Of a stretch of 64,000 bases of DNA, positions 16,893 to 37,957 are shown one piece after another. The stretch's first letter is position 1, and each line of letters begins with the position of its first letter. The stretch covers positions 558,001 to 622,000 of the forward strand of contig JAHLKT010000003.1 in NCBI GenBank assembly GCA_020444545.1, given 5' to 3'. A model generated the notes under the pieces. The model was given only the letters and a program-made list of their open reading frames with translations. It ran no database searches and was not told the origin of the DNA. The position numbers and the translations under genes were made by a program. Origin of the DNA: Desulfarculaceae bacterium (GTDB lineage Bacteria; Desulfobacterota; Desulfarculia; Desulfarculales; Desulfarculaceae).

Positions 16893-17717
16893 CTAGAGTT
16901 CCTCCAGCACCCCGGTGATCAGCTTGGCCATGTCCGCGCCCGCGCGCCCCGCGTTGGCGATGACCAACTCCAGGGGGGCGGGCTGCATGTCGTCGGGGTC
17001 GTTGACGTTGCTGATGGCATTGAGGCCCATGACCCTGAGGCCCATGTGGCGCGCGGCGATCACCTCCAGGACCATGGACATGCCCACCGAGTCGGCCCCC
17101 AGGGCGCACAGCATCTTGGTCTCGGCCGGGGTCTCCATGCTGGGGCCCTTGAGGCCGATGTAGACGCCGGAGTAGAGCGGGATGCCCTTGGCGGCGGCCA
17201 CGCTGCGGGCCAGGGCCAGGAGCTGGGGATCGTAGGTCTGGCTCATGTCCGGGAAGCGCTCGCCCCAGGCGTCCACGTTGGGGCCGATGAGGGGGTTGTC
17301 GCCGGTTAGGTTGATGTGGTCCCGAACCAGCATGACCCGGCCCGATTCCATGGTGGTGTCCAGGCCGCCGGCGGCGGAGCAGAAGATGAACACCTCCACC
17401 CCCAATAGGGCCAGGACCCGCACCGGCAGGGTCACCTCCTGGGCGCTGTAGCCTTCGTATAAATGAAAGCGCCCGGCCAGAGCGGCCACCGGCTGCCCGG
17501 CCAAGGTGCCCAGGATCAAGTGCCCCGCGTGGCTGGCCACGGTGGAGACCGGGAAGCCGGGGATCTCATCGTAGGGGATATTCACCGCGTTCTGGATGGC
17601 CGCGCCCAGGTCGGAGAGGCCGGTGCCCAGGGTGAGGCCCACGCGGGGCTTGAAACCGGCGGGCAGGCGGCTTTGCAAATACTCCAGGGCTTTTTCTACC
17701 GTATCTTGGTGTGCCAT
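16893..17717 (-). CDS. punA: Purine-nucleoside phosphorylase, type I (trimeric)
   Basis: The 274-residue protein matches the PNP/MTAP superfamily: GLTLGTGLSDLG (phosphate loop), VASHAGHLILG, AGRFHLYEGYS, SAAGGLDTTMESGRVMLVRD, YIGLKGPSMETPAE, VGMSMVLEVIAARHMGLRVM and NAISNVND. The Glu and Asn expected for 6-oxopurine recognition (EVIAA and NAISN) are present, favouring guanosine or inosine. It would cleave inosine from adenosine-type deamination. The neighbouring MTA/SAH deaminases fit a purine salvage link. It ends about 80 bases from repeat cluster 4. Confidence 0.93.
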   Translation of the reverse strand: MAHQDTVEKALEYLQSRLPAGFKPRVGLTLGTGLSDLGAAIQNAVNIPYDEIPGFPVSTVASHAGHLILGTLAGQPVAALAGRFHLYEGYSAQEVTLPVRVLALLGVEVFIFCSAAGGLDTTMESGRVMLVRDHINLTGDNPLIGPNVDAWGERFPDMSQTYDPQLLALARSVAAAKGIPLYSGVYIGLKGPSMETPAETKMLCALGADSVGMSMVLEVIAARHMGLRVMGLNAISNVNDPDDMQPAPLELVIANAGRAGADMAKLITGVLEEL

Positions 17718-17881
17718 GCGGCCGATCCCCTATATGTTGCGGTTGGGAAAAAATTGCATTCATGCCTTCCGGCCACAGGAAAGCAGGAATTCCCGGCCCT
17801 GTCCATCGATTTTTTGGGCGGGGCAAGCCGCCGGAATGATTGCCCTAAACGCCGCAGGGCTTAAATGTCACCTTAAATTGG

Positions 17882-35808: not shown

Positions 35809-36936
35809 TTAGCCCAGGGGGAGCGTCTGCTGCAAGGCCGGGGCCGGGGGCAAAAGGATGCGGGCGATGGTCCCGCCTCCCTCTCGGTTGGCCAGCTCGA
35901 TGCTGCCGCCGTGCTCCTCGATGATGCGCCGGGCCACGGGCAGGCCCAGGCCGGTGCCCCCGGACTTGGTGGTGAAGAAGGGGGTGAATATCTCTTCCAG
36001 ATGGGCCGGGTCCAGGCCGGGGCCGTCGTCGCGCACCTCCAGCTTGACCCCGTTGCCGTTGGCCATGAGGGCCACCTCCACCTTGGCCCCCTCGCCCGCG
36101 GCCTGCACCGCGTTGTTGATCAGGTTGATCAAGACCTGGCTCAAGCGGTCGTTGTCGGCCATGACCCGGGGCAGCTCCTCGTCCTTGTTCAGCGACAGCT
36201 CCACCCCGGCGGCCTCCAGCTTGGGGCCCATGAGCTCGGCCACGTGCTCCACCACCTGGCTGAGGTCGCTTTCGCGCCAGTTGTACTTGGCCGGCCGCGA
36301 GAGGTCGCCCAGCTCATTGAGGATCGTCTCCAGGCGCTCCACCTCTTTGGTGATGATCTTAACCTTGTCGCGGCCCTTGCCGCTGAGGCCGTCCTCGCGC
36401 TCCAGCTGGCGGGCGAAGCCGCCGATGAGGGTGAGCGGCGAGCGTATCTCGTGGCTCACCGTGGCCACCATCTCCCCCAGGATGGCCAGGCGCTGGCTCT
36501 GCTTGACCTTCTGCTCCAGGCCCGCTTCCTTGCTCAGGTCGCGGAAGATGGCGGTCATCAGGGGGCTGCCGGCCACCTCGGCCACCGAGAAGCTGATGGA
36601 GACCGGGAAGCGGGTGCCGTCGCGGCGCTCGGCCTCCAGCTCGGCGGTGTGGCCGATCATCTTGCCCCGCCGGGTGCGCACGTAGCGCTCCACGTAGTGG
36701 CGGTGGCGCTCGCGGTGCTCCGAGGGGATTAGGGGCGAGAGATCGCCGCCCAGGATCTCGGCCCGGTCGTAGCCGAACATCTTTTCGGCCGCCGGGTTGA
36801 GGTAGATCACCTCGTGGTTCTCATTGATGGTCACCACCCCCAGCTCGGCGGTTTCCACGATGGTGCGAAACTTCTCCAGCTCCTGGGCCGCTTCGGCCAG
36901 GTGTTCGCGGCAGTTGTCATCGCCCGGGGGTAGCAT
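35809..36936 (-). CDS. PAS-domain sensor histidine kinase (orphan)
   Basis: The 375-residue soluble kinase has a PAS domain at about residues 20-140 (TAELGVVTINENHEVIYLNP, AAEKMFGYDRAEILGG). The H-box is MVATVSHEIRSPLTLIGGFA, the N-box VLINLINNAVQAAG, G1 is VRDDGPGLDP, and F/G2 are FTPFFTTKSGGTGLGLPVAR. No response regulator gene is adjacent, so its partner is unknown. A 385-base structured leader region lies upstream. AGGAAGG precedes the ATG. Confidence 0.93.
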   Translation of the reverse strand: MLPPGDDNCREHLAEAAQELEKFRTIVETAELGVVTINENHEVIYLNPAAEKMFGYDRAEILGGDLSPLIPSEHRERHRHYVERYVRTRRGKMIGHTAELEAERRDGTRFPVSISFSVAEVAGSPLMTAIFRDLSKEAGLEQKVKQSQRLAILGEMVATVSHEIRSPLTLIGGFARQLEREDGLSGKGRDKVKIITKEVERLETILNELGDLSRPAKYNWRESDLSQVVEHVAELMGPKLEAAGVELSLNKDEELPRVMADNDRLSQVLINLINNAVQAAGEGAKVEVALMANGNGVKLEVRDDGPGLDPAHLEEIFTPFFTTKSGGTGLGLPVARRIIEEHGGSIELANREGGGTIARILLPPAPALQQTLPLG

Positions 36937-37045
36937 GGGCCTTCCTGTGATGGGGGTGTTCTATTTTTTGTAGCAGATGGGGCCGAGCGGGGCAAGAGCT
37001 GCTGTTGGGGCGGGTTCGGAGGGCGAAAAAAGGCTTCTGGGGCCC

Positions 37046-37080
37046 AAAAAGGATCAGGGCCGGGTTTTAAACCGGCCCTG
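37046..37080 (-). terminator. Intrinsic terminator within the histidine kinase upstream region
   Basis: CAGGGCCGG (37055-37063) pairs perfectly with CCGGCCCTG (37072-37080). On the minus strand the stem is followed by ATCCTTTTT. It ends about 110 bases before the kinase start codon. Confidence 0.75.
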
Positions 37081-37225
37081 AGCGGGGAGGGGGAAGGCCA
37101 GGGACCTTCCTGGGAGGGAACAACCACCCTGCAACTGTCCAGTGCACCCTGTCAGGAAGGCTTGCGGAACAATCACGGGGTGGAGAGAGGGCGAGAGACA
37201 TAGTCTGACAGTGCATTCTATGTTA
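37046..37225 (-). ncRNA. Candidate about 180-nt structured RNA or attenuated leader
   Basis: The minus strand has TTGACA at 37255-37260, an 18-base spacer and TACGCT at 37231-37236, then about 180 bases up to the terminator at 37046-37080. Stems inside include ACATAG/CTATGT, CCTTCCTG/CAGGAAGG and TGCACTG/CAGTTGCA. TTGTTCC and TGCACTG each occur twice. No reading frame is convincing. The size recalls 6S RNA, but I could not fold it into the 6S shape. An attenuator of the kinase gene is equally possible. Confidence 0.35.
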
Positions 37226-37321
37226 GATGCAGCGTAGCAAGGTGGATTTTAGCGTGTCAAGGGAAAAAGACCATATATTGTGGAATTATTTTTACGACCT
37301 ACCAAATATTGCCATGTCACC

Positions 37322-37957
37322 TCATGAATCAAGCTCATTAATTCTTTGCAAAAGCCGGGTCGACTCGCGGGTCAGTGCACTCTCGCCCCCCAACCAGAAG
37401 TGATCGCCCCCTGGGGTGAGCATCAAGGTGCTCCGTGCACCCATGGCCTGGTCAAAGGCCTTGAGCTTGGCCGTGTCGCCGTACTCGTCGGCGTCGCCGC
37501 ACATGATCAAAAGCGGCCCCGCGCCCTGGGGCCAGGGGGGCAGATCGCCCAGGGTGTAGGGCGGGCTGACCCACACCCCGCCGCTCAGGCCCTCCACCCG
37601 CTCCGCGGCCCGGGCCCCGGTGAGGCAGCCGAAGGAGTAGCCCATGAGCGCCAGGGGGCCGGGCACCCGCTCCCGCAGCCAGGCCGCCGCCGCGATTACG
37701 TCCTCCTGCTCGCCCCGGCCCTCGTCGTGGCGGCCGGTGGAGCGGCCCACGCCCCGGAAGTTGACGCGCAATGCGGCCCAGCCCGCCTTTTCGGCCCCCT
37801 GCACCAGGGCCAGCACCACGTTGTTGTGCATGGAGCCGCCATACAGGGGATGGGGGTGCAGCACCAGGGCCGCGCCCCGGGGCGCATCGGGCAGGGAAAG
37901 ACCGCCTTCCAGGGAGACCTGCTGGTTCACCTCGATGAATACTCGCTCTTCGCTCAT
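37322..37957 (-). CDS. Alpha/beta hydrolase
   Basis: The 211-residue protein fits the dienelactone-hydrolase/YuaR-like group: VLHPHPLYGGSMHNNVVLAL, ALRVNFRGVGRSTGRHDEGR, the nucleophile elbow LALMGYSFGCLTGARAAE (GYSFG), an acid in LLIMCGDADEYGD and a terminal His in TPGGDHFWLGG. The substrate is unknown. The ATG at 37955-37957 with GGAGAGAGC upstream is preferred over the longer GC-rich frame. It lies 64 bases after glutamate decarboxylase on the same strand. Confidence 0.88.
   Translation of the reverse strand: MSEERVFIEVNQQVSLEGGLSLPDAPRGAALVLHPHPLYGGSMHNNVVLALVQGAEKAGWAALRVNFRGVGRSTGRHDEGRGEQEDVIAAAAWLRERVPGPLALMGYSFGCLTGARAAERVEGLSGGVWVSPPYTLGDLPPWPQGAGPLLIMCGDADEYGDTAKLKAFDQAMGARSTLMLTPGGDHFWLGGESALTRESTRLLQRINELDS

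Follow-up and report, generated by a model that had tools for sequence, protein, structure and literature searches.

What is encoded between an alpha/beta hydrolase gene and the PAS sensor kinase gene downstream of it in this Desulfarculaceae genome, and what might control it? The original prediction placed here a 180-nt structured RNA that could be a 6S-like RNA, a regulatory RNA or an attenuated leader of the kinase. We analyzed the locus within the window, i.e. the whole 64,000-nucleotide stretch (G000:C3:558001-622000) of the 4.38 Mb source genome (G000), and in related genomes. As judged by sequence comparison, the locus is almost certainly an undescribed, free-standing small RNA gene of Desulfarculaceae, kept through almost the whole family, and it likely belongs to the NrdR regulon, its product probably being a C-rich antisense regulator that operates independently of Hfq. 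The features are as follows.

37322 to 37957, minus strand: alpha/beta hydrolase, the upstream neighbor
37299 to 37314, minus strand: candidate NrdR box 1, TGGCAATATTTGGTAG on the minus strand, 31 bp from box 2
37268 to 37283, minus strand: candidate NrdR box 2, CCACAATATATGGTCT on the minus strand, its center 15 bp upstream of the -35 element
37255 to 37260, minus strand: -35 element TTGACA
37231 to 37239, minus strand: extended -10 element TGCTACGCT
37231 to 37236, minus strand: -10 hexamer TACGCT, preceded by TGC, with an 18-bp spacer to TTGACA
37046 to 37224, minus strand: small RNA of about 179 nt, its start placed from the promoter and its end from the terminator
37211 to 37217, minus strand: conserved 5' motif AAUGCAC of the RNA, its UG and AC invariant in a 14-sequence alignment
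37124 to 37183, minus strand: hairpin 1, with a 6-bp closing stem CCACCC/GGGUGG, internal loops and an apical stem
37111 to 37123, minus strand: C-rich linker 1, single-stranded
37092 to 37110, minus strand: hairpin 2, GGAAGG...CCUUCC
37082 to 37091, minus strand: C-rich linker 2, core CCCUCCCCGC, nearly invariant and the most conserved single-stranded segment
37046 to 37081, minus strand: intrinsic terminator, a 10-bp stem (37054-37081) and a U-rich tail
36966 to 36995, minus strand: putative separate PAS kinase promoter, TTGCCC-N17-TACAAA, preceded by TGC, read by eye
35809 to 36936, minus strand: PAS-HisKA-HATPase sensor kinase, the downstream neighbor

Promoter, terminator and conserved structure

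The promoter that had been proposed, TTGACA-N18-TACGCT, is present on the minus strand, with its -35 element kept in relatives. Recognizing that TTGACA is kept in 14 aligned relatives (TTGACT in one) and that the extended -10 element is mostly kept as well, we consider this promoter credible; a strict promoter scan returned no sigma-70 site at the sRNA locus, because TACGCT is a poor match to the -10 consensus. The terminator stem is perfect, as predicted, but its length is 10 bp and not 9, with an 8-nt loop (37054-37081), and TCCTTTTT comes after it on the minus strand. The proposal of a structured RNA of 180 nt was borne out by a fold of -66.3 kcal/mol (z = -3.45), with none of 200 shuffles folding as well, and both internal repeats, TTGTTCC and TGCACTG, do occur twice. 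The individual stems named in the original prediction did not hold up among the 8 same-genus sequences: ACATAG/CTATGT and TGCACTG/CAGTTGCA are each complete in just 2 of the 8, while CCTTCCTG/CAGGAAGG is complete in 2 and retains 5-7 of its 8 pairs in the rest. In addition, the minimum-energy fold does not contain this last stem, which competes with a better conserved GGAAGG/CCTTCC hairpin.

The conserved architecture, as predicted from the alignments, is a long hairpin, the short GGAAGG/CCUUCC hairpin and the terminator, with C-rich single strands between them. Among the 8 same-genus sequences, 98.0% of the cells across 38 pairs are paired and 7 pairs are changed on both sides, vs. 2.6 in shuffles and 0-2 in slid controls. 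With all 18 sequences, 94.8% of cells are paired and 26 of the 38 pairs are changed on both sides, vs. 9.3 in shuffles and 8-11 in slid controls, in an alignment that was fitted to the model and thus leans towards structure. Within this set, all 6 closing and all 9 middle pairs of hairpin 1 show two-sided changes, as exemplified by the closing stem, which reads CCACCC/GGGUGG in the source genome, CUGCUC/GAGCAG in G003, GCCCUG/CAGGGC in G013 and G016, and CGCCCC/GGGGCG in G015, G017 and G019. RNAalifold on a plain MAFFT alignment (n = 14) recovered hairpin 2 and the terminator only; in our opinion hairpin 1 is missing there because it misaligns between genera. The terminator says little by covariation, because its perfect stem hardly varies among homologs.

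Distribution and gene order

At the DNA level, 15 of the 60 relatives searched gave a match, comprising 14 true loci and one 24-base, chance-sized match (G028). The first covariance model (R1) was built from 8 same-genus sequences, which match by construction; among 63 genomes of the class it matched 19, with 18 full-length matches, all in Desulfarculaceae (18 of the 20 family genomes), and E-values of 2.8e-15 to 2.1e-6 in the 10 family genomes outside the training set. The R1 match in G055 covered the terminator only (E 0.009). No clear sRNA match was found in G014 and G018, both 71% complete assemblies; a lax re-search gave nothing in G014 and only E 0.01-0.07 in G018. A second model, run with strict filters on 395 genomes of the phylum with 7 candidates scored per genome, yielded 10 family matches and 2 weak ones, and a lax search of 16 chosen genomes gave only weak matches outside the family. 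One distant phylum genome, G172, has two weak full-length matches (L104, E 4.5e-4; L165, E 4.1e-5), which are probably chance. By a 20-base pattern, the same RNA is present in named records of a Desulfarculus sp., of Desulfarculaceae and of more broadly labelled proteobacterial MAGs; the other records matching this pattern are unrelated chance matches.

The order hydrolase - RNA - kinase is also conserved. An alpha/beta hydrolase lies upstream in 17 of 18 loci, and the PAS kinase lies downstream on the same strand in 15; the kinase is absent in G008 and G012, and in G015 its position falls off the end of a short contig. The RNA homolog of G012 (L072) is found at a different place without the usual neighbors, and the gene downstream of it we take to be a flagellar rod gene.

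Paired upstream boxes and the NrdR regulon

Upstream of TTGACA, the alignment revealed two conserved AT-rich palindromes of 16 bp, which is the length of an NrdR box; by eye, each reads CAAYATNTDGT in the same direction, at a distance of 31-32 bp from the other. Positioned at 37268-37314, they fall just outside the 37046-37260 range of the original prediction. Of the 18 homologs, 17 have their pair at a spacing of 31 or 32 bp, and 17 have the center of box 2 at 13-15 bp before the -35 element, with G003 counted at 14 bp since its -35 is the TTGACA 6 bp before the one picked by the script (which gave 20). In G012 (L072), the best pair is not in the usual place and sits in AT-rich DNA; it was left out of the count.

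The same boxes occur elsewhere in the family. An early search with a half-pattern gave 5 matches in 8 genomes vs. 5 in the control, 4 of the 5 being the sRNA promoters themselves. With the 31-bp pattern and at most 2 mismatches, there were 56 strand-wise matches (48 distinct places, as 8 palindromic places count twice) in all 20 family genomes vs. one with the reversed control; the 32-bp pattern gave 26 matches in 15 of the 20 vs. one in the control. Pairs precede nrdJ, the adenosylcobalamin-dependent reductase gene, in 8 genomes (G000 (L105), G001, G002, G005, G006, G007, G008 and G011) and nrdD in 4 (G006, G008, G010 and G014), both genes being named from best NCBIfam matches that lie under the curated cut-offs, with several of them fragments cut by the stretch. 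Pairs are also found before a higA-like gene in 8 family genomes, with glnS next in 6 of 8 loci. The pattern also matched at several other places unrelated to these genes, perhaps by chance. The nrdR gene itself was found in the source genome (G000:C6:197863-198300, E 1.3e-53) and in 19 of the 20 family genomes, the miss being a 70% complete assembly. In the accessible parts of two published accounts, NrdR boxes are paired palindromes with a common spacer of 15-16 bp, or about three turns from center to center (PMC12051234, PMC9110341). Given that the sites before nrdJ and nrdD have this three-turn spacing, we identified them as NrdR boxes, and the sRNA promoter very likely belongs to the NrdR regulon, on the strength of the boxes that it shares with them.

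A matrix built only from 12 ribonucleotide reductase (RNR) pairs (24 boxes) detects a pair ahead of the RNA in all 18 homologs, at 18.0 to 31.3 bits, and in each of them 0 of 200 shuffles reached the real value; this test is partly circular, as the search pattern behind the RNR sites came from the sRNA promoters. What is independent is where the pattern falls, namely on reductase genes, with the spacing known from publications, and in numbers far above control. The sRNA pair of the source genome is the weakest of all at 18.0 bits, compared to 26-39 bits for the RNR training pairs, whose scores are biased upward because those pairs made the matrix.

It is conceivable, yet unlikely, that some other factor binds the sRNA sites in place of NrdR, e.g. 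the HigA-like XRE protein encoded beside glnS. XRE proteins often bind ACAA...TTGT-type operators, and the higA-like gene carries sites of its own in 8 family genomes. However, an XRE factor would not account well for the sites before both nrdJ and nrdD, and recJ, nor for a spacing of 31-32 bp, which is that of NrdR. The loci with pairs at HigA-family antitoxin-like genes are L100, L101, L107-L109, L117, L086, L097 and L145.

Returning to NrdR as the preferred factor, we noticed NrdR-like pairs at recJ in 5 genomes (L129, L131, L132, L133 and L151), where two of the five genes were scanned and pass and the other three are named by resemblance; these pairs suggest that NrdR may also control DNA repair in Desulfarculaceae. 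A mutM gene, which passes, adjoins a weak NrdR-like pair in G002 and G003 (L110 and L111).

What kind of RNA the locus encodes

Among the classes proposed originally, a regulatory RNA is the one supported, by the conserved promoter, the terminator, the covarying structure, the synteny and the lack of a conserved reading frame. An own promoter and terminator with no conserved frame, as expected of a trans-acting sRNA, were found at the level of sequence.

We consider it quite unlikely that the RNA is an attenuated or riboswitch-like leader, in which read-through past the terminator would set the expression of the PAS kinase. Its placement directly upstream of the kinase on the same strand (15 of 18 loci) fits such a role, but four observations argue against it: 1) in 11 of 13 readable loci the terminator is followed, ahead of the kinase start, by a promoter-like site, TTGNCY-N17/18-TGCTA, which is weaker in G002 and G009 (all read by eye), so that the kinase would have a promoter of its own; 2) the terminator stem is perfect and nearly invariant; 3) no known riboswitch matched; 4) in G008 and G012 the RNA persists with no kinase beside it. 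No riboswitch, 6S or other credible family at the sRNA locus came out of the Rfam comparison, for which the whole window was scanned at the gathering threshold and a 394-base segment at E-values up to 10.

A small coding gene, in which a conserved AUG at +9 would start a short peptide, is very improbable. An AUG or GUG does occupy this place in 16 of 18 homologs, but the ensuing frames run from 5 to 57 codons with unrelated content, the other two homologs have none, and there is almost no leader to hold a ribosome site. The original statement that the gap contains no frame is thus nearly right: none is conserved, although two can be read here, of which one of 49 codons, starting with ATG, passes through the RNA, and one of 98 codons, starting with GTG, overlaps with it. 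A divergent 6S RNA, alike in length (~180 nt) and in being an independent gene, is hardly tenable, as all 20 family genomes carry the actual 6S gene (RF00013) at another place (17 of them over the Rfam cut-off; in the source genome at G000:C7:28396-28580), the sRNA ends are not paired with each other, and the architecture differs.

Proposed regulation and mode of action

From the computed features, namely conservation, covarying structure, promoter and terminator sequences, shared boxes, the nrdR gene and no Hfq found, we infer that the RNA is made, that NrdR binds at its promoter and that the RNA pairs with mRNA. In the proposed scheme, the sRNA gene would have a sigma-70-type promoter and a terminator of its own; an NrdR tetramer with dATP and ATP would hold the boxes, which lie near -50 and -81 and share a helix face; the amount of RNA would be coupled to the dNTP pool alongside expression of the ribonucleotide reductase genes; and the RNA would act in trans, its exposed C-rich segments pairing with G-rich ribosome-binding regions without Hfq or CsrA.

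As for the sign of NrdR control at the sRNA promoter, repression is slightly favored over activation, because it is the usual role of NrdR; activation is possible because the boxes lie upstream of the core promoter. In the nrdD promoter of G008, one box lies inside a promoter-like spacer (by eye). In the accessible text of the respective papers, NrdR loaded with dATP and ATP binds DNA and represses reductase genes (PMC9110341), and NrdR activates topA in Pseudomonas aeruginosa (PMC4409342).

Judging from its C-rich linkers, the RNA may pair with G-rich ribosome sites, and we give an antisense mode of action a little better than an even chance. A target search covered 206 crudely called genes in 304 kb of the source genome and gave no convincing mRNA target of the sRNA: nrdJ, higA, glnS and the kinase paired with the RNA no better than the 206 background genes, and the hydrolase mRNA ranked in the top 1.9% for linker 1 only. 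An enrichment of the C-rich linkers at Shine-Dalgarno zones, in test genes chosen for having such a site, was reproduced by shuffled linkers and is thus a composition effect; the exception was the apex of hairpin 1, which is paired. Pairing of the CCTTCC of the RNA with a complementary AGGAAGG site of the kinase was likewise discarded, as relatives do not share that site. None of the 20 family genomes yielded Hfq, in a search whose controls were positive in 5 of 14, and CsrA was not found in the source genome; a role linked to Hfq or CsrA was set aside given that the source genome yielded neither gene.

Relation to known systems

NrdR is described as a near-universal and rather narrow repressor of reductase genes. 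We lean toward the view that this family-wide sRNA is a core member of the NrdR regulon, providing a post-transcriptional arm that would retune translation, without Hfq, as the pool of DNA precursors changes. If true, NrdR would control more than reductase and repair genes and would gain such an arm; an sRNA kept across several genera would offer a new way to ask what cells adjust at low or high dNTPs, and a defined sRNA family would be added to a sulfate-reducer group without Hfq. A literature search on Desulfarculus and small RNA found no described sRNA for this group.

Among C-rich sRNAs, mycobacterial B11/6C and RepG of Helicobacter reportedly come from bacteria without Hfq and are said to be structured RNAs whose C-rich segments are exposed and can reach G-rich ribosome-binding sites, as proposed here. 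They differ in regulator and host and have no sequence or Rfam match to our sRNA, whose C-rich segments are linkers between hairpins. The 6S RNA (RF00013) is alike in size and as a stand-alone gene.

The sRNA locus shares with the NrdR regulon the two 16-bp palindromes 31-32 bp apart, common to nrdJ and nrdD, and the presence of nrdR; in contrast, the members named in the accessible parts of the cited papers are protein genes, i.e. reductases, often nrdR, and topA (PMC9110341, PMC4409342), whereas the putative member here is a non-coding RNA with boxes wholly upstream of the -35 element. HrrF of Haemophilus influenzae, as described in the accessible part of its report, is a Fur-regulated, iron-controlled RNA of ~97 nt that affects nrdB (PMC4144887). 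It resembles our sRNA in having its regulator's sites upstream, in being limited to one family and in a stability independent of Hfq (same part of PMC4144887); it differs in Fur/iron control, in length and in lineage, and no nrd target is predicted for the Desulfarculaceae sRNA. We found no NrdR-controlled sRNA in literature drawn largely from outside the subscription journals, including the accessible parts of PMC12051234, PMC3848588 and PMC4144887.

Within the window, the sRNA pair (18.0 bits) ranks second, behind a 19.0-bit pair at 17696-17742. The gene whose start this other pair overlaps encodes a purine-nucleoside phosphorylase (16893-17717, minus strand); the pair may be fortuitous or may point to an extension of the regulon to nucleoside salvage.
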